Origin: Chloroflexota bacterium
GTDB lineage: Bacteria; Chloroflexota; Anaerolineae; Aggregatilineales; J027
Assembly: GCA_024434115.1 (NCBI GenBank)
Contig: QMIT01000001.1
Span: forward strand, 310,001 to 374,000
Direction of reading: 5' to 3'
DNA: 64,000 bases
Shown: positions 9,730-20,565 of the stretch, piece by piece
Layout: each line of letters starts with the position of its first letter
How positions within the stretch are numbered: position 1 is the first letter of the stretch
The notes under the pieces: generated by a model
The model's database searches: none
The model's input: the letters and a program-made list of their open reading frames with translations, nothing else
What the model was told of the DNA's origin: nothing
Made by a program: the position numbers and the translations under genes

Positions 9730-11175
9730 CTAATCTGTACTCCCAAAAATGGCATAAAATTGATTGAGACCTTCGCGCATCTCGTCGCGTTCAATGTCAA
9801 AATTTTCGGTCAAGGTGGCGGCCTGATTAGCAAATTCACGTCCCAAAGTGGAGCCTGTGCTATTGGTGGGCACACGAAGCATAAAAATGATCAATAACAG
9901 TGTGATGATACCCATAGGTCGTAGGCTTGCGGCAATATCTTCGGGTAAGAGAGGCTCGATAATGCCGAATCCATCTAATGGCGGAATAGGTAACAAATTG
10001 AGCATAATCGCCGTGACTTGGATAAACACTAGAGCAGCTAGGGGGTACCATAGGTTGCCCCGTTCACTCAATTGTTCTGGTGTCACCAACCCCAACCAAA
10101 AAGGCGCGGAAAAAACAATGGCGCAGATCAAATTGGCAAATGGCCCAGCGGCGGATACAGCACTGCCCCACCATTTGCTGCGAAGACGATGCCGTTCAAT
10201 ATAGACTGCCCCACCCGGAAGGCCGATGCCGCCTGCCAATAAGATGACAAGCGGGATAAAAATGCTTACAAGCGGATGGGTGTATTTAAGCGGATTCATG
10301 CTTAGATACCCTTTTTCGACCACTGTATGATCGCCACCGAAATAGGCTACTAACGCATGGGCAAACTCATGGAGGGTGAGTGAGATAATCCATCCCCCAA
10401 TCACAATCACAAGCGGCACCGTTACATCGGGCCTGATGACGGCTCCATAGGCGACCATCACCACAATGGCTAACCCTATTAAACCGATTTGCCACGTCGA
10501 AAGACCTGTACTACGTGATTGGGCCGTTGTTCGGCGTGGGGCGGGTCTGGCCGGGCGGGCAGCAGTCGTTGCGCTGGCGCGATTTCCTTGTAGTGCTGAA
10601 GTTGAACGGAGGGAGCTAATACCCCGTGCTTGTGAATTGGCATTAGACGGAATACCAAGCCCTGCAAAAACATCGGCGAACTCCCACGTGCTGGGTCGCC
10701 ATTTTTTGCTAAAAATACCCGATGGTTCTTCCACATTGGCTTGGACGTAGGCACGGATTTTCACAACATCGAATTTGGGAAGGTCTTTAAAAATATTTTC
10801 CAAAAAACCGCTAGGGCGCTCTAATACCCCCAACAGGATGTGACTGCTGCATAAAAAATTGTGCCCCATCTGATGGGCTTCGCGTCCCGCTTGGGCAAAA
10901 TTTAAGCGGGCCTCGCTGGTCAGCCCTTTGGTGGTATTGAGGGGTTCATCCCGAACAACGCTCAATTGATTGGTAACTGCCGCCGTCACTTCGTCAGCCG
11001 ACAGACCACCCACTTGAAGGGCTTGGCGTGCTAATTCATTGCTCAATATCCCGATCAACAAGTGTTCGCTATCCAAATAGGGATTGTGACGGGCGCGGGC
11101 TGTATTGACCGAGATTTCTAATGAATGTACGGCATCGGGCGTGAGTGCGTCCAAAAAGGTGCTACTCATCGTCAC
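9730..11175 (-). CDS. Clp_N domain - M50 zinc metalloprotease fusion, membrane protein
   Basis: A 481-residue protein joining two modules. Residues ~12-75 and ~86-148 are two Clp N-terminal repeats like those of ClpA/ClpC (SEHLLIGILSNE; SSHILLGVLERP). A Ser/Arg/Pro-rich linker (~175-225) leads to a multi-helix membrane domain. This carries HEFAH at 269-273 (zinc site) and NLLPIPPLDGF near 393-403 (third ligand), the hallmarks of site-2-type M50 intramembrane proteases. No AAA+ ATPase domain is present. Clp_N domains bind substrates or adaptors, so this may recruit proteins to a membrane protease; that is inference. The gene overlaps the end of sufU by 14 bp. Confidence 0.87.
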   Translation of the reverse strand: MTMSSTFLDALTPDAVHSLEISVNTARARHNPYLDSEHLLIGILSNELARQALQVGGLSADEVTAAVTNQLSVVRDEPLNTTKGLTSEARLNFAQAGREAHQMGHNFLCSSHILLGVLERPSGFLENIFKDLPKFDVVKIRAYVQANVEEPSGIFSKKWRPSTWEFADVFAGLGIPSNANSQARGISSLRSTSALQGNRASATTAARPARPAPRRTTAQSRSTGLSTWQIGLIGLAIVVMVAYGAVIRPDVTVPLVIVIGGWIISLTLHEFAHALVAYFGGDHTVVEKGYLSMNPLKYTHPLVSIFIPLVILLAGGIGLPGGAVYIERHRLRSKWWGSAVSAAGPFANLICAIVFSAPFWLGLVTPEQLSERGNLWYPLAALVFIQVTAIMLNLLPIPPLDGFGIIEPLLPEDIAASLRPMGIITLLLIIFMLRVPTNSTGSTLGREFANQAATLTENFDIERDEMREGLNQFYAIFGSTD

Positions 11176-11551
11176 CCGTCCAACGTTCTACATTATAGGC
11201 GGCAGCTTTGGCGACCTTGAGCGATAACAGGGCGCATTTGCGGCGGCTCATGGTGATTGGGATACCCAGTAATTCCATGACGTCATCGCTGGTGATGTGT
11301 TTGATTTCGTCGAGCGATTTGCCGATTAACTCATCACCTAAAATAGAGGCGGTGGCTTGGCTAATCAGACAACCTTGACCGTTCCAACCGACCCGCTGGA
11401 CGATGTTATGGTCGTCTACCTTGAGGGTCAATTCAAGCTGATCCCCGCACAAAGGATTTTCGTCTGCGGCGTGCAGTTGATAGTCGGGCAGCAACCCCCA
11501 ATTATGTGGATGCTGACCGTGATCTATGATGTTTTCTTGATAAAAATCCAT
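11162..11551 (-). CDS. sufU: SufU sulfur-transfer / Fe-S assembly protein
   Basis: A 129-residue IscU-fold protein. In Firmicutes-type SUF systems SufU is a zinc-dependent acceptor that takes persulfide sulfur from SufS. Visible zinc/sulfur ligands are Cys35 and Asp37 (PLCGD), Cys61 (GQGCLIS) and Cys106 (RRKCALL). The insertion before the third Cys typical of SufU versus IscU appears to be present. The start at 11551 (MDFYQENI) is preceded by a GAGG site; the longer reading frame runs into sufS. It begins 13 bp after sufS, so the genes are cotranscribed. Confidence 0.93.
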   Translation of the reverse strand: MDFYQENIIDHGQHPHNWGLLPDYQLHAADENPLCGDQLELTLKVDDHNIVQRVGWNGQGCLISQATASILGDELIGKSLDEIKHITSDDVMELLGIPITMSRRKCALLSLKVAKAAAYNVERWTGDDE

Positions 11552-11564
11552 GTTTCCCTCGCCC

Positions 11565-12821
11565 CTATTTCCGACTGAAACGTCGTTTGGCGACATAGAG
11601 CGCCTCTACCAGTTTATCCACTTCTGCTAAAGAATTGTAGAGGTAAAAACTGGCGCGGCTGGTGGCGGGGACATTGAAATGTTGATGCAGCGGCATGGCG
11701 CAGTGGTGTCCGGCGCGAACGGCAACCCCTTCGCTGTCTAAAATCTGAGCCATGTCATGGGCGTGGATGTCATCGAGGGTGAAGGTGGCAACTGAGCTAC
11801 GATAGGGGGCATCCGGGTTAAACAAACGCAAGCCGGGCACTTCGGCAAGGCGGTCATGCAAATAGTCGGTGATTTCCCGTTCATAGGCATGAACTCGATC
11901 CATGCCCAGATTGCTCAAATAATCTACGGCTGCACCCAACCCAATTCCTTCGGCGATGGCGGGTGTGCCGGCTTCAAATTTATAGGGCAGATCGTTGAAG
12001 GTTGAACCCTCCAGCGTGACGCGGCGAATCATATCTCCACCGCCCATCCACGGGGGCATGGCTTCGAGCAGGGATTTTTTGCCGTAGAGGATACCAAGCC
12101 CGGTTGGCCCGCACATTTTGTGCCCGCTGAAGGCATAAAAGTCCACATCGAGCGCTTGCACATCCACTGGCATATGCGGGACACTTTGCGCCCCGTCACC
12201 AATGGCAATCGCCCCGGCGGCATGGGCCAGACGCACAATCTCCGCCATCGGATTGATGGTACCCATGACGTTGCTGACGTGCATGATGCTGACGGCTTTG
12301 ACGGGTTCATCACGCAGAATTTGCTGATAGGCATCCATGTCTAGCCGAAAATCGGGCGTAACAGGGACATAACGAATCCGAAAGCCTTTTTCCTGCTGCA
12401 AGATGTGCCACGAGGTCAAATTAGCGTGGTGTTCCATCACACTCAAAACCACCACATCGTTCGGGCCGAGATTGACGCGACCCCATGTCTGCACAATCAA
12501 ATTCATGCTTTCGGTGGTGTTGCTAGTGAAGATCACTTCTTTGCGGGAAGCGGCATTGATAAAATTTTGGACTTTATCGCGTGCCCCTTCATAAAGCTCG
12601 GTGGCGGCTTCACTTAAAGCATGTACCCCCCGGTGGACATTGGCATGGGTGTGGCGATAATAGTGATTCATCGCCTCAATGACTTGGACGGGTTTTTGGC
12701 TGCTGGCGGCGCTGTCCAAAAAGACTAGCGGTTTGCCGGGATGAACTTCCTGATCCAGAATCGGAAAATCGGCCCGTACAGCGTCAATATCCCATGCGGT
12801 GGGGGGTGTTAATGTGGTCAT
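11565..12821 (-). CDS. sufS: Cysteine desulfurase SufS
   Basis: A 418-residue PLP enzyme that releases sulfur from cysteine as an enzyme persulfide for Fe-S assembly. The PLP Lys is K235 in FSGHKMCGPTG. The catalytic Cys is C374 in RAGHHCAMPLHQ, a short group II (SufS-type) active-site loop. It overlaps sufE by 4 bases (ATGA) upstream and precedes sufU by 13 bp. Having both known SufS partners in one operon is notable. Confidence 0.96.
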   Translation of the reverse strand: MTTLTPPTAWDIDAVRADFPILDQEVHPGKPLVFLDSAASSQKPVQVIEAMNHYYRHTHANVHRGVHALSEAATELYEGARDKVQNFINAASRKEVIFTSNTTESMNLIVQTWGRVNLGPNDVVVLSVMEHHANLTSWHILQQEKGFRIRYVPVTPDFRLDMDAYQQILRDEPVKAVSIMHVSNVMGTINPMAEIVRLAHAAGAIAIGDGAQSVPHMPVDVQALDVDFYAFSGHKMCGPTGLGILYGKKSLLEAMPPWMGGGDMIRRVTLEGSTFNDLPYKFEAGTPAIAEGIGLGAAVDYLSNLGMDRVHAYEREITDYLHDRLAEVPGLRLFNPDAPYRSSVATFTLDDIHAHDMAQILDSEGVAVRAGHHCAMPLHQHFNVPATSRASFYLYNSLAEVDKLVEALYVAKRRFSRK

Positions 12822-13276
12822 TCGGATTTCTGTTCCTTTTGCGTCAGGTCAGCAAAATATTTGAGCAGGGCGACCATGCCCAAGAGTCCTTCGCCCTTGC
12901 CCATTGAAATGCGTTTGCCAAACAGCCGAAACACAATATCATGCGGGATGGCCTTGATGGTTTCAGCTTTTTCGCCCATCAGTGACTCTTGTAAGATGGC
13001 AGCCAATGCCTTTGCCGATACCCCTTGCGGATTTTCGACGGCGAAATAGAAATTAATTCCGCCCTCCGCGTTAGGTTCGGTAAAAACATACGCCTCTGAC
13101 TCGCAGCGCTGAACACGATGATCTTCGGGGAAGGGACGCTGGGCAATGTAGCTGGGGACTTCTTGAAATCGGCTGCTGTAATCCAACAGAATCTCAGCCC
13201 GTCCATGTTCGTCAATGTCTTCGAACATCTCCATTACGTCGCGTAAGGTTTCGGGATATTCGCTGATGTCTGCCAT
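12818..13276 (-). CDS. sufE: SufE sulfur acceptor
   Basis: A 152-residue SufE-family protein that accepts persulfide from SufS and passes it to the SufBCD scaffold. The acceptor Cys is C58 in HRVQRCESEAYV. The N-terminal LRDVMEMFEDIDEHGRAEIL and the C-terminal helix GLLGMVALLKYF match the family. The gene sits between the rhodanese gene (15 bp upstream) and sufS (4-base ATGA overlap), suggesting translational coupling with sufS. Confidence 0.93.
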   Translation of the reverse strand: MADISEYPETLRDVMEMFEDIDEHGRAEILLDYSSRFQEVPSYIAQRPFPEDHRVQRCESEAYVFTEPNAEGGINFYFAVENPQGVSAKALAAILQESLMGEKAETIKAIPHDIVFRLFGKRISMGKGEGLLGMVALLKYFADLTQKEQKSE

Positions 13277-13291
13277 CTTTCATTCACCTTA

Positions 13292-14143
13292 CTATTTTTC
13301 GATTGGCACACCGACAGAATTACCCCATTCTGTCCAACTGCCATCATAGTTGCGTACAGTAGGATAACCGAGCAAGTAGGTCAGGACAAACCATGTATGC
13401 GCCGAACGTTCCCCGATGCGACAATAGGTGATGATATTTTGGCTGGGGGCGAATCCATTATCCTGTTCATAGAGGGCTTTGAGATCATCCGATGTCTTAA
13501 ACGTACCGTCGGATTGAACTGCTTTGCTCCAAGGAATACTTTTGGCACCGGGGATGTGTCCGGCCCGCAACGCACCCTCTTGGGGATAATCCGGCATGTG
13601 GGTCAACTCACCCTTAAATTCACCGGGGCTGCGCACATCAATCAAAGGCAGGTGGCCGTTGACATGGCTCAAGACCTGCTCACGGAAAGCACGCACTTTG
13701 TAGTCGGAGCGTTCTTGAGCGTGATAGTTTGAGGCGGGATAATGTGGCACTTCTTTGGTCAGTGGGCGCTGTTCTTCGACCCATTTGAGCCGTCCACCAT
13801 TCATAATCGCGGCGTTGGTGTGTCCGAATAATTGGAACACCCAGAACGCATAACACGCCCACCAATTGTTTTTATCCCCATAAAACACCACTTGGGTATT
13901 GTTGCTGATACCGTGTTTGGAGAGCAGGCTTTCAAAGGATTTGCGATCAAGATAATCACGGCGAACTTGGTCATTGAGGTCTGTTACCCAGTCAATCTGA
14001 ATCGCACCGGGGATATGACCGGAGGCATACAACAGGGGGTCTTCGTTAGATTCGACAATACGCACGGCGGGATCGTTTAAATGCTGTGCGACCCAATCCG
14101 TACTAACGAGCGCATCCGGGTGAGCATAGCCAGAATTCGACAT
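13292..14143 (-). CDS. Tandem-domain sulfurtransferase (rhodanese, thiosulfate or mercaptopyruvate type)
   Basis: A 283-residue protein of two rhodanese domains (about 10-130 and 150-280). Only the C-terminal domain has the active-site Cys, C241, in the loop CRIGERS. The CRxGxR pattern is usual for thiosulfate sulfurtransferases, whereas CG(S/T)GVT is usual for mercaptopyruvate enzymes, so the first is favoured. Its place inside the suf operon, between sufD and sufE, suggests it supplies or relays sulfane sulfur to cluster assembly. A hairpin lies between it and sufD. Confidence 0.9.
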
Positions 14144-14204: not shown

Positions 14205-15572
14205 TTATTTGTTTTTGGCGGTGTGCATTCCAAGTAATTTACGGTCTACGTCCGCCAGCAAGCGATTCTGCACATCCTCAAAAGGGATGCGCTCCAATAC
14301 GTCCCAGAAATAGCCGTTCAGGAACAGGCGCTCTGCCTCAATGCGAGGGACGCCGCGTGTCATGAGATAGAAGATGTATTCTTCTTCCATCTGCCCAACC
14401 GTCGCAGCATGAGTGCAGCGTACATCGTCGGCTTCAATCTCCAGACCGGGGATGCTGTCGGCACGGGCGGTGTCACTCATGAGCATATTGCGATTGGCTT
14501 GGAAGCCGTCGGCCTTAATTGCCCCCGGCATAACGCGGATATTGCCACGCCAAACACTGCGGGCTTCATCTTTGAGGGCGGCCTTGAATAGAAGATCGCT
14601 GGTGGTATGGGGGGCGCTGTGGGTTTGATAGGTATCGTGATCCAGCAGTTGTGTGCCATCGGCGAAGAACATGCCACTCATGCGACCCCATGCACCCTGT
14701 TCATCGAGCGAGATTTGCATGAATGACTTGGTGAGTTTGCTGCCCATGCTGCCCACAATCCAGTCGAGTTGACCATCACGGGAAACGTGACCCCGCCCAT
14801 GACTAAACTCGTACATGTTGTGGCCCCAGCTTTGCAGGCTGACATAACGCAAGTTGGCGGAGCGTCCAACCAATAACTCCGTCCCGCCGATATAGCTGGT
14901 ATGGCTATCACCTTCGGGGGAGAGGTATTCATGCAAAATGGTGGCCTGTGCGCCTTCTTCCAACACGATCAAGACATGGCCCAGCGTCGCGCCGATCTGT
15001 TCACTATAGAAGATGCTGTGCAGAGGGAGTTCGACCACCACATTACGTGGCACATAGATAAACAACCCGTGTGTCCATGCGGCGGCGTGCAGGGCGGCAA
15101 ATTTGCCCTCGGACGGTTTAAGGGCTTTTTGGAACAGATGCTTTTTCACCAGATCGCCATGATCGCGGATGGCCGTGTGTAAATCGGTGAAGACTACACC
15201 CTGCTTGGCGATTTTTTCATTCAATTCGCGGTGAACGAGTTTGCCATCTACCCACGCAATCAAGCCACCTTGCTCGTCGCCAATCAATGGGGCACGATTT
15301 TCGGCAGGGATATGTTCCACTGTCGCGCCATTGGGGACGGCATAATGTCCGGCGCTGTTCCAATTGATATGGCTGTAATCAGTGCGTCGCCACGCCTCAT
15401 CCCGTTGGTTCGGCATCGGCATGGATTCATAGACGGCCCATGCTTGCTGGCGGAGTTCAATGGCCCAATCAGGTTCGCCAGCAGCCCGCGCATGTTCCAG
15501 AATGGCTGACCATTGGAAGGGCGGGGCAGCAATTTCACGTTTGGCTCGGCGACTAACAGTTGTTGTCGTCAC
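14205..15572 (-). CDS. sufD: SufD, Fe-S scaffold subunit
   Basis: A 455-residue SufB/SufD-family protein. SufD pairs with SufB and the ATPase SufC to build and deliver Fe-S clusters in the cytoplasm. The central right-handed beta-helix region is recognisable (LEEGAQATILHEYLSPEG; FQANRNMLMSDTARADSIPGLEI), as is the C-terminal CTHAATVGQMEEEYIFYLMTRG. It follows sufB by about 80 bp. Assignment as SufD rather than a second SufB rests on gene order, greater divergence and the shorter N-terminal region compared with the neighbouring clear SufB. Confidence 0.93.
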   Translation of the reverse strand: MTTTTVSRRAKREIAAPPFQWSAILEHARAAGEPDWAIELRQQAWAVYESMPMPNQRDEAWRRTDYSHINWNSAGHYAVPNGATVEHIPAENRAPLIGDEQGGLIAWVDGKLVHRELNEKIAKQGVVFTDLHTAIRDHGDLVKKHLFQKALKPSEGKFAALHAAAWTHGLFIYVPRNVVVELPLHSIFYSEQIGATLGHVLIVLEEGAQATILHEYLSPEGDSHTSYIGGTELLVGRSANLRYVSLQSWGHNMYEFSHGRGHVSRDGQLDWIVGSMGSKLTKSFMQISLDEQGAWGRMSGMFFADGTQLLDHDTYQTHSAPHTTSDLLFKAALKDEARSVWRGNIRVMPGAIKADGFQANRNMLMSDTARADSIPGLEIEADDVRCTHAATVGQMEEEYIFYLMTRGVPRIEAERLFLNGYFWDVLERIPFEDVQNRLLADVDRKLLGMHTAKNK

Positions 15573-15653: not shown

Positions 15654-17084
15654 TTAGCCAACACTGCCTTCTAACTGAATTTCGATGAGGCGGCGCAGTT
15701 CCAACGAGAATTCGATGGGCAGTTCTTTCGCCAAAGGCTCGATAAACCCATTCACCACCATGGTGTTGGCTTCAGCCTCGCTGAGACCACGACTCATCAG
15801 ATAGAACAACTGCTCCTCCCCAACCTTGCTGACACTGGCTTCGTGCCCAATCGTCACATCATTTTCTTCGACTTCGATGTAAGGATAGGTGTCGGAACGG
15901 CTTTCAGGATTCAGCAACAAGGCATCACAGACAACATTACTCCGCACGCCTGTCGCGCCTTCATGCACTTTCAGCAGGCCGCGATAGCTGGCCCGACCAT
16001 TGTCTTTGGAAATGGACTTGCTGATAATGCGGCTGGTGGTGTTAGGAGCGACATGCACGACCTTGCCGCCTGCGTCTTGATGTTGACCACTTCCCGCAAA
16101 GGCAATACTTAGCACTTCGCCGTGTGCGCCGGGTTCCAATAGATAGACCGCTGGATATTTCATGGTTACTTTGGAGCCGAGATTGGCGTCTACCCATTCC
16201 ATCGTGGCATTTTGATAGGCGACGGCGCGTTTGGTGACGAGATTGTAGACGTTGCTCGACCAGTTTTGAATGGTGGTATAGCGGCAACGCCCACCCTTTT
16301 TGACGATGATTTCGACCACCGCACTGTGTAGGCTGTCACTTGACCAAATGGGGGCGGTGCAGCCTTCGACATAATGGACAAATGCGCCTTCATCTACAAT
16401 GATGAGGGTACGCTCAAATTGACCCATATTTTCGGTGTTGATGCGGAAATAGGCCTGTAGCGGCAAATCTACATGCACCCCCGGCGGGACGTAAATGAAG
16501 CTGCCGCCCGACCAGACGGCGCTATTGAGGGCGGCAAACTTGTTGTCGGTGGGGGGGATGATGGTGCCGAAATATTCCTTGACCAATTCGGGGTGTTCAC
16601 GCAGACCCGAATCCATATCGAGGAACAACACACCCTTATTTTCAAGGTCTTCACGGACTTTGTGATAGACCATTTCGGATTCATATTGAGCGCCGACCCC
16701 ACTCAGGAATTTTTGCTCGGCTTCAGGAATGCCTAGCTTATCAAAAGTATCTTTGATTTCGCTTGGCACTTCGTCCCACGAACTTTCCTGTTTTTCAGTG
16801 GCTCGGACGTAGTAACGAATGTCGTCGAAATCAATACCCGTGAGGTCAGCACCCCATGATGGCATAGGTTTGCTCAAAAACGTGCGATAGGCGCGTACAC
16901 GAAATTCAGTCATCCATTCGGGTTCACCTTTGATGGCACTAATCCAGCGTACCACGTCTTCATTGAGTCCCTTGTCACGCTTGATGGCGTAAAAATCCTC
17001 TGGGTCGTGAAAGCCATATTTGGTGAGATATTCGTTGTTGAGGTGACGTAATGCCTGCTCTTCGGGTGTCAGCCGGTCACTCAT
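15654..17084 (-). CDS. sufB: SufB, Fe-S scaffold subunit
   Basis: A 476-residue scaffold on which nascent clusters are assembled. Family hallmarks include [36 protein letters not shown] with EGCTAP just before it, and the C-terminal [25 protein letters not shown]. The protein is well conserved over its whole length and matches the usual ~470-residue size. It starts 21 bp after sufC in the usual sufC-sufB-sufD order. Confidence 0.97.
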
Positions 17085-17105: not shown

Positions 17106-17888
17106 TTATTCTTCGGTTGCTTCAACGCCATGTTTTTCAAAGAACGGCTTGTAACCTGCAAGTTCCACTTCTTCCGCTAATTCCGGCCCGCCGCTTTCGA
17201 CAATGCGCCCATCCATCATCAGGTGGATGTGCTGCGGTTGCAAATAATCTAACATGCGTTTGTAGTGGGTAATGACCAAAATGCCGAGATCAGGCCCTTT
17301 GAGTTTGTTCACCCCATCTGCCACAATGCGCAAGGCGTCAATATCGAGGCCGGAGTCGGTTTCGTCGAGAATGGCAACACGTGGCTCAAGTGTAGCAAGC
17401 TGCAAAATTTCGTTACGTTTCTTTTCGCCACCGGAGAAGCCTTCATTGAGATAGCGACCCGCGAATTTGTGGTCAATACCCAGCAAATCCATTTTTTGCG
17501 TCAGCAGTTTGCGAAATTGGGGAATGCTGATCCCTTGATCTTCGGGGTTCTGTGATTTACGGCGAGCATTGATGGCACTGCGCAGGAAATTGGCGACGGA
17601 GACGCCCGGCACGGCAACCGGGTATTGGAAGGCGAGGAATAGACCGAGGCGGCTGCGTTCGTCCGCTTCCATTTCCAAGACTTCTTCGCCATCAAAAATG
17701 ACCTGTCCCGCGTCTACCGTATAGGCGGGGTGGCCCATCAGCGCATAAGCCAGCGTACTTTTACCAGAGCCGTTTGGCCCCATCAGTGCGTGTGTCTCGC
17801 CTTGATTAATCGTCAGATTCACCCCTTTAAGAATCGGTGTGCCATTGATACTGACGTGTAGATTTCGGATTTCGAGGGTCGCACCCAT
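17106..17888 (-). CDS. sufC: SufC, Fe-S assembly ATPase
   Basis: A 260-residue ABC-type ATPase that drives the SufBCD scaffold. Walker A is GPNGSGKST at residues 37-45. The signature is the SufC-specific [12 protein letters not shown], and Walker B is [16 protein letters not shown]. It is the first gene of the minus-strand suf operon. The leader before it is about 150 nt and contains a 6 bp hairpin (17928-17944). AGGAGG lies about 12 bases before the ATG, a rather long spacing. Confidence 0.97.
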
Positions 17889-18050
17889 AATACTTGAAGT
17901 CCTCCTGAGATATTGGAAATTTAGTCAAACTCGCGTACCGAGTTGGGAATTTCTGTTGGGGAAACCTATCACTATGCCTTAATTTCGCGGAAAAGTATAC
18001 CAGCTTACCCAACATAAATCAATAAGTGAAAAATTCGTTCAACTAATTCT

Positions 18051-18080
18051 AATTTAGCACGCTGCTGCGTTATCTGTCAA
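18051..18080 (-). promoter_or_regulatory. Candidate suf operon promoter
   Basis: On the minus strand a perfect TTGACA (18080-18075) is followed after 18 bp by TAAATT (18056-18051, 4 of 6 to TATAAT). The -35 box forms one end of a palindrome shared with the divergent sufT promoter. Transcription would begin near 18045. Confidence 0.5.
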
Positions 18081-18110
18081 TAAGTTGAAAAAATATTCAA
18101 ATAATTGACA
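18075..18110. promoter_or_regulatory. Palindromic operator candidate shared by suf operon and sufT
   Basis: Two arms of 15 bases (TGTCAATAAGTTGAA and TTCAAATAATTGACA) flank a 6 bp AAAATA centre and are complementary at 13 of 15 positions. Each outer end is a TTGACA -35 box, one reading toward sufC and one toward sufT. A dimeric regulator bound here would cover both promoters at once. The regulator is not encoded in the window; SufR- or Rrf2-type Fe-S sensors are natural candidates, but the site matches no motif I can assign with certainty. Confidence 0.6.
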
Positions 18111-18133
18111 CATGGCTTGAGCAGTGGTAGACT
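18105..18133 (+). promoter_or_regulatory. Candidate sufT promoter
   Basis: A perfect TTGACA (18105-18110), 17 bp spacer and TAGACT (18128-18133, 4 of 6) preceded by TGG, giving an extended -10 (TGn). The start would be near 18140, about 30 bases before the gene. Confidence 0.6.
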
Positions 18134-18172
18134 GACCATAAGAGTGCCGGAAACTATTTGGAGCATTTTGTG

Positions 18173-18481
18173 ATGAGCGACGCCGTTCAAACGATGGAAG
18201 ATAAAGTTCGGGACGCCCTGCGCACGGTGGTTGACCCCGAAATTGGAATGGATGTTATTCAATTGGGCCTTGTCCGAAAAATTGATGTTAGCGAAAACCG
18301 CCTGCATCTGATTATGATTTTGACAACTCCCTTTTGCCCCTATGCACCCCAGTTAATGGAGCAGGTTCGCCGCACAGGTCAAACGGTGTCGGGCTTGATC
18401 ACGACCATCGAAATGGGCCTCGAAATTTGGGACCCCTCGATGATGGAAGAGGGTGCTGCCGATGATTGGGGACTATTTTAA
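18173..18481 (+). CDS. sufT: SufT-like MIP18 (DUF59) family protein
   Basis: A 102-residue protein of the MIP18/DUF59 family, whose bacterial SufT members support maturation of Fe-S proteins. Motifs seen are VVDPEIGMDVIQLGLVRKI, then LTTPFCPYAPQL, which contains the conserved Cys. The C-terminus ends in a tryptophan-containing ADDWGLF. The ATG at 18173 has GGAG 9 bases upstream; an in-frame TTG at 18158 would bury that site. It is divergent from sufC with a shared control palindrome, which supports a role with SUF. Confidence 0.85.
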   Translation: MSDAVQTMEDKVRDALRTVVDPEIGMDVIQLGLVRKIDVSENRLHLIMILTTPFCPYAPQLMEQVRRTGQTVSGLITTIEMGLEIWDPSMMEEGAADDWGLF

Positions 18482-19506: not shown

Positions 19507-20565
19507 GTGACATTATTTTCAACCAACATCATTAAATTAACGAGCCTAGCAGGGGCAGCGGGTTGTGCTGCCAAGTTGGGAGCAGGTGATCTATCGGAAG
19601 TCGCTTTTCCGTTGGGACAGCTCTTCGATAGTGCTGCCCATCCCAATTTAATGGTGGGGCTGGCTGAACCCGATGACGCTGCGGTCTATAAACTAAACGA
19701 CACGCAAGCGATTATCAGTACCACTGATTTTTTCCCACCTGTAGTAGATGACCCCTATTGGTTTGGGGCCATTGCTGCCGCCAATGCTATGAGCGATGTC
19801 TATGCAATGGGTGGCGAGGTGTTAATGGCGATTAACCTATGTGCCTTTCCCGCCAGCCTTGACCTTGCCATTCTGGGTGAGATTTTGCGGGGCGGGGCGG
19901 AAAAAGTACGTGAGGCTGGGGCGGTTGTTGCGGGTGGGCATACCATTATGGATAACGAGCCGAAATATGGCTTGGCCGTAACGGGAGTGGTGCATCCTGA
20001 CCGCGTATTGACCAAAGGTGGTGCGCAATCTGGTGACGCCTTGATTTTGACCAAACCACTTGGAGCAGGGGTGATTACGACGGCTCTTAAACAGGGCAAA
20101 GCCCATGATAACCATGTGGAAAACGCCATGCGGATTATGGCAATGCTCAATCGTGCAGCAGCACAGGCGGCCCAACAAATAGGTGTTCATGCCATGACCG
20201 ATGTGACGGGTTACAGCTTGTTGGGTCATGGGCGAGAAATGGCTAATCTGAGCGGGGTTAATCTGCATATCCATCCTGAATCGCTCCAATGGATGGACGG
20301 CGTATGGGACTATGCGGAACAGAACATCTTCCCCGGTGGGATGGGCCGCAATCGTGGCTTTTATGGTAAATGGGTACAGTTTGCGGACAGCATTGATGAG
20401 ATAACCCGCAAATTGTTGTTTGACCCACAAACGTCGGGCGGCTTGCTCATCGCGGTGGGAAGCGAACAGGCCGATTTTCTGCTAAAGACTCTAGCACAAC
20501 AGGGGATCAATGGTCAGCGTATAGGAGAAGTGACAGAGGGTGATGGTCTGATAGTCGTTGATTAG
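19507..20565 (+). CDS. selD: Selenide, water dikinase (selenophosphate synthetase)
   Basis: A 352-residue enzyme that makes selenophosphate from selenide and ATP, the selenium donor for selenocysteine or 2-selenouridine. The AIRS-type fold is clear: STTDFFPPVVDDPYWFGAIA binds metal and ATP, followed by NAMSDVYAMGG and AGGHTIMDNEPKYG. The N-terminal loop reads AAGCAAK: Cys20 aligns with the catalytic Cys17 of E. coli and Lys23 with Lys20, but the second Cys of the family's G-C-G-C-K is Ala22. The start is GTG; an out-of-frame ATG 8 bases before runs into TGA. No selA, selB, tRNA-Sec or selU is in the window. Confidence 0.93.
   Translation: MTLFSTNIIKLTSLAGAAGCAAKLGAGDLSEVAFPLGQLFDSAAHPNLMVGLAEPDDAAVYKLNDTQAIISTTDFFPPVVDDPYWFGAIAAANAMSDVYAMGGEVLMAINLCAFPASLDLAILGEILRGGAEKVREAGAVVAGGHTIMDNEPKYGLAVTGVVHPDRVLTKGGAQSGDALILTKPLGAGVITTALKQGKAHDNHVENAMRIMAMLNRAAAQAAQQIGVHAMTDVTGYSLLGHGREMANLSGVNLHIHPESLQWMDGVWDYAEQNIFPGGMGRNRGFYGKWVQFADSIDEITRKLLFDPQTSGGLLIAVGSEQADFLLKTLAQQGINGQRIGEVTEGDGLIVVD

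Follow-up and report, generated by a model that had tools for sequence, protein, structure and literature searches.

In the 64-kb stretch of DNA analysed here (the window), the suf operon for iron-sulfur cluster assembly and the sufT gene are transcribed away from each other across a 284-bp intergenic region, which raises the question of whether one regulator controls both units and to which family it belongs. We consider it likely that this region carries two operators of the SufR family, one for the promoter of the suf operon and one for that of sufT, and that they act by the repression mechanism set out below.

The operon lies on the minus strand and begins with sufC (17106..17888; TIGR01978, 349 bits), which is followed by sufB (15654..17084; TIGR01980), sufD (14205..15572; TIGR01981), a rhodanese/mercaptopyruvate sulfurtransferase-like gene (13292..14143; PF00581), a sufE-like gene (12818..13276; PF02657), the cysteine desulfurase gene sufS (11565..12821; TIGR01979) and a sufU-like gene (11162..11596), whose match to TIGR01994 (83 bits) is below the cut-off of 92.5. 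On the plus strand, sufT (18173..18481) encodes a DUF59/FeS_assembly_P protein of 102 aa (PF01883, 62.5 bits). Two genes past sufT, an open frame at 19507-20565 resembles, by eye, selenophosphate synthase (selD).

Dyads and promoters between sufC and sufT

A first-pass annotation of this DNA had described a palindrome with arms paired at 13 of 15 positions around a 6-bp AT centre and with a perfect, outward-facing TTGACA at each end, and both features were confirmed in the letters of 18075-18110, which read TGTCAATAAGTTGAA-AAAATA-TTCAAATAATTGACA. This 36-bp element (18075..18110, no strand assigned), referred to as site 2, is a predicted SufR-type operator whose right end is the -35 box of sufT. 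The dyad exceeds chance expectation: of 2000 shuffles of the intergenic region (284 bp) that preserved dinucleotides, 4 yielded an equally good one, and no other inverted repeat of this quality (15-nt arms, at least 13 paired positions, loop of 0-12) was found in the 64-kb window. The palindrome also persists where the annotation had proposed to look for it, in relatives that share this gene pair: in five genomes of the genus it is identical at 36 of 36 positions, and the 21-bp stretch between the conserved blocks is identical at 10 of 21. An Rfam search of 17850-18200 gave no match. A SufR-family repressor that senses Fe-S clusters very probably binds at this palindrome.

The promoter of sufT (18105..18133, plus strand) is as the annotation described it, with TTGACA at 18105-18110, a 17-bp spacer and TAGACT at 18128-18133, and it is conserved in relatives. 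For sufC, a -10 box 18 bp from the opposite end of the palindrome had been proposed. Such a box exists (TAAATT, 18051-18056, with TTGACA at 18075-18080; 18051..18080, minus strand) and is a possible second sufC promoter, but it is probably not the main one. The probable preferred promoter, as read from the DNA, is located at 17994..18022 (minus strand), where TTGATT (18017-18022) is separated by 17 bp from an extended -10 box, TATACT (17994-17999), with TGG upstream of it. This promoter is homologous to the TTGACA-18-TATACT promoter of a sister genus (L006), and its TATACT is homologous to the -10 box of sufC throughout the order, which is TATACT or TATAAT.

Exactly at this better sufC promoter lies a second dyad, which was absent from the first-pass annotation. 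Site 1 (18021..18048, no strand assigned), which reads AATAAGTGAAAAATTCGTTCAACTAATT against AATAAGTTGAAAAAATATTCAAATAATT, repeats the dyad core in diverged form and overlaps the sufC -35 box. The block surrounding it (18015-18053) is identical at 38 of 39 positions in the five genomes of the genus. Because site 1 overlaps the better sufC promoter, the window's genus has a separate site for each promoter.

The position of site 1 bears on a variant that is compatible with SufR, namely that in this genome, too, both units are transcribed from the two -35 boxes of a single palindrome. Site 2 still spans 36 bp and ends in TTGACA on either side, and the genus also conserves the -10-like TAAATT at a distance of 18 bp; however, TAAATT is a weaker -10 box than the TATACT at 17994, which has homologues at sufC in the sister genus and the order, and the second dyad coincides with that TATACT promoter, making the single-palindrome arrangement rather unlikely here. 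The reading with two operators, one per promoter, is therefore preferred.

Distribution of the dyad among relatives

In nearly all readable genomes of the order, sufT is divergent from sufC. In 17 genomes from three families (f3, f7 and f8), a SufR-family gene, designated SufR-1, is located between sufC and sufT and is transcribed toward sufT. These genomes have a single dyad with both outward -35 boxes, whose outer ends lie 36 bp apart in 16 of the 17 and 38 bp apart in the remaining one; the consensus of the 17 is GTCAATAAnnnnGATnnnnATCnnnnTTATTGAC, and the promoter spacers are 17 bp, except for three of 18. The annotated arrangement, one palindrome carrying both -35 boxes, is thus literally true of these relatives, since their single dyad carries both, and it also applies to some other genomes; the window's genus has two sites, one per promoter. 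Compact single dyads were found in many genomes without SufR-1 as well, and two separated sites were found in others, including the window's genus and the sister genus. Most lineages that have no SufR-like gene have kept both promoters and lost the dyad. In two genomes (G140 and G151; loci L100 and L109) the linked SufR-1 matches over its DNA-binding half only, and is perhaps a decaying or HTH-only regulator.

Co-occurrence of the dyad with SufR genes was examined in family f6, in which the dyad core adjoining the sufC -35 box was scored by an anchored matrix. Among f6 genomes that are at least 90% complete, the core was present in 22 of 32 with SufR-2, the second SufR-like gene described below, vs 3 of 34 without it (Fisher 5e-7), these figures reflecting few independent losses. 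Inner dyad symmetry alone was found in 20 of 53 genomes with SufR vs 1 of 43 without (p<=0.05), and in only 6 of the 17 SufR-1 genomes; the matrix anchored at the sufC -35 box separates genomes with and without SufR better than inner symmetry does. In genus g46, the 27 SufR-less genomes that are at least 90% complete have TTGACA-17-TATACT-like promoters on both sides and no dyad, and the only g46 genome with SufR-2 (G098), which has Rrf2 genes as well, has a dyad at each of the two promoters and another in the leader of SufR-2. Running counter to this association, genomes that keep the dyad and in which no SufR-like gene was detected are G044, G052 and G077 (all at least 90% complete) and G001.

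A further element was observed in the suf leaders of f6. A leader of about 70 nt upstream of sufC (loci L018-L040 and L115-L134) contains a conserved GG[GT]TA-n11-TTTAAC...ATTAAA element, which was not seen in the window's genus and which could be a cis-acting RNA; in g46 this element is a clean hairpin, GUCGGUUA-n11-UUAACCGAC.

The same distribution bears on whether a Fur-family regulator (Fur, PerR or Zur) could bind the AT-rich GAT-n4-ATC dyad. The order-wide core, AATnATGATnnnnATCATnATT, is similar in composition to a Fur box, and Fur-family genes are found in nearly all genomes. However, 151 of the 154 genomes have them, the dyad-less g46 genomes among these, so that the presence of Fur does not track the site; furthermore, the gap between the half-sites is 4 rather than 1, and the dyad recurs at SufR genes. 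Regulation by a Fur-family protein is considered quite improbable.

A candidate SufR-like regulator and the genome-wide sites

SufR-1 is absent from the window's genome (G000, 5.28 Mb). The one SufR-like gene of this genome, SufR-2, lies at G000:C1:191156 onward, 119 kb outside the window, and is directly followed by a gene for an A-type Fe-S carrier (PF01521). The SufR-2 protein is similar to TIGR02702 over its full length (E 1e-19, residues 5-210 of 219) and has an N-terminal winged HTH that scores above the Pfam cut-offs for HTH_20/HTH_5; a profile search of solved structures returned weak HTH matches only. Since its 71 bits are under the equivalog cut-off of TIGR02702 for cyanobacterial SufR (178.8 bits), the protein is filed as SufR-like and not as the cyanobacterial equivalog; this cut-off was reached in none of the 154 genomes, SufR-1 being below it too. 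SufR-1 and SufR-2 form two separate clades with support of 100/100. A SufR-2 of the Anaerolineae type was also found in JAHHHY010000001.1 (L284), which is titled Pleurocapsa minor, a title that is probably wrong.

Three cysteines of SufR-2, C165-x12-C178-x27-C206, are invariant in alignment A1, and the C-x12-C-x27-C spacing is present in 17 of 17 SufR-1 and 38 of 44 SufR-2 sequences. Of the six other SufR-2 sequences, four from f3 have a second gap one residue longer and that of G132 has a longer first gap; the sixth, from G041, was shortened by the alignment yet has the cysteines. This spacing is that of C203, C216 and C244 of Rv1460, the SufR of Mycobacterium tuberculosis, which are required for its function (PMC6034842).

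The first-pass annotation had predicted an Fe-S or redox regulator and suggested a search for a gene of the SufR or Rrf2 type. The prediction of an Fe-S regulator is supported and its SufR branch is represented by SufR-2; the Rrf2 branch fared differently, as a search of the window's genome returned no Rrf2 gene at E<=1e-10. IscR, an Rrf2-type protein, controls such genes in Proteobacteria, and Rrf2 genes are present in some relatives, among them G001, G004 and G098. An IscR-like protein controlling suf and sufT is nevertheless scarcely probable at all, because G002, G003 and the listed dyad-bearing f2 genomes have no Rrf2 gene at the same threshold either; the window's genome has one marginal match, of 30.5 bits, in a 319-codon frame.

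The dyad is found at the gene of the proposed regulator itself. In the window's genome the SufR-2 leader carries AATTAGTTGAA-n6-TACAAAGAATT between the -10 box and the start codon, and in f6 the SufR-2 dyads mostly follow right after the -10 box. A half-site matrix built from the suf sites of f3-f8 only detected the dyad upstream of SufR-2 in 33 of 45 regions vs 8 of 45 in the reversed control (p<=0.05). Matrices from other families, including that from the SufR-1 genomes, gave no score to the window's sites or to its SufR-2 leader because the dyad sequence has drifted in this genus, and the association of dyad and SufR-2 suggested for the window's genus rests on a genus pattern that was written after those sites were seen.

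When the five genomes of the genus were searched with this pattern, allowing up to 3 mismatches, five sites were found in the 5.28 Mb of the window's genome and none with the reversed pattern. Two are at suf/sufT, including the site 2 core (18079-18106); a search for the motif elsewhere, which the annotation had suggested, thus added three, one in the leader of SufR-2, one at mnmA and one at a siroheme cluster. Most sister genomes have matches at the orthologous positions. The pattern was written with the suf and SufR-2 sites in view, and the mnmA and siroheme sites emerged unasked.

The mnmA dyad (L220 3083-3110; G000:C1:548082-548109) ends two bases short of the start codon of mnmA and follows a TTGACC-17-TACTAT promoter; a gene for a NifS/IscS-type cysteine desulfurase is adjacent. 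Matching sites are present in all five genus genomes. The siroheme dyad, at L240 (G000:C1:36842-36869) and also at L221, L223 and L224, is upstream of the first gene of a cluster that encodes a CysG N-terminal protein, a CbiX-like chelatase and uroporphyrinogen-III methyltransferase.

The positions of these sites are informative about an explanation that involves no repressor, in which the AT-rich palindrome is an UP element common to two back-to-back promoters. AT-rich DNA just upstream of two good -35 boxes has the look of an UP element, and most dyad-less genomes keep both promoters, yet SufR-2 leaders have the dyad on the downstream side of the -10 box, and at mnmA it adjoins the start codon, positions from which an UP element cannot act. 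With the exact 36/38-bp spacing, the dyad symmetry and the tracking of the dyad with SufR genes also against it, this explanation is improbable.

A model of regulation and its relation to known SufR systems

In characterized systems the cluster-loaded SufR dimer represses and cluster loss derepresses (PMC6034842, PMC8593673, PMC13421787). By analogy, we infer that a homodimeric, Fe-S-cluster-binding winged-helix repressor of the SufR family reads both operators. When Fe-S clusters are sufficient, the loaded dimer would cover each -35 region and block RNA polymerase; under iron limitation or oxidative stress the cluster would be lost or changed and the dimer released, and expression of suf, of sufT and of the regulator gene itself would rise together. 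In the window's genome the regulator would be the unlinked SufR-2, whose leader bears a matching dyad. In the SufR-1-linked relatives one 36-bp dyad would serve both promoters, because its ends are the two -35 boxes. The dimer site shared by suf and sufT that the first-pass annotation envisaged is supported by the conserved dyads of relatives with this gene pair, to which a dimer is predicted to bind; the window's genus has two such sites, one per promoter.

A close parallel is the sufR/sufBCDS locus of Synechocystis, which likewise has a divergent arrangement with two intergenic SufR sites, one per promoter, autoregulation, and a regulator combining an HTH with a C-terminal Cys cluster (PMC6034842, PMC7058544). 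In contrast to Synechocystis, the operator here is an AT-rich dyad of 34-36 bp in place of CAAC-N6-GTTG, the gene that diverges from suf is sufT, whether or not sufR accompanies it, and the window's predicted regulator is unlinked and lies beside an A-type carrier gene. The published CAAC-N6-GTTG motif is absent from the suf/sufT region of the window, and was found in 1 of 113 suf/sufT intergenic regions and in none of 45 SufR-2 upstream regions. Rv1460 shares the C-x12-C-x27-C ligand spacing (PMC6034842) and the control of suf, but the M. tuberculosis sufR is the first gene of the suf operon rather than a divergent neighbour. In Streptomyces avermitilis and Corynebacterium glutamicum the SufR site likewise coincides in part with promoter elements of sufR itself (PMC11995493), but it is CAAC-N6-GTTG (GAAC-N6-GTTG in C. 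glutamicum) and sufR is inside the suf operon. Escherichia coli IscR provides a similar Fe-S-sensing feedback on cluster assembly genes through a different protein family, Rrf2, for which the window's genome gave no match at the threshold above.

The literature search found no paper on SufR in Chloroflexota, and SufR control of tRNA thiolation (mnmA) or siroheme synthesis was not reported in the papers searched. SufR had been regarded as limited to cyanobacteria and some actinobacteria. There is about an even chance that these Chloroflexota have an Fe-S regulon of the SufR type that uses an operator class of its own, in which the ends of one 36-bp dyad are the two divergent -35 boxes, and two ancient SufR-like paralogues, of which the linked one was lost in several families and the unlinked one, tied to the A-type carrier, took over the same operator, the regulon reaching mnmA and siroheme synthesis in the window's genus.

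A repressor at the palindrome would let these uncultured Chloroflexota switch their iron-sulfur-cluster factory on and off. The SufR-like system is seen across an order, with a clear operator and a small, coherent predicted regulon. The natural losses separate promoter from operator, and synthetic DNA makes the operator accessible to in vitro tests even though the organisms are uncultured. The DUF59 protein SufT would gain a direct regulatory tie to suf.
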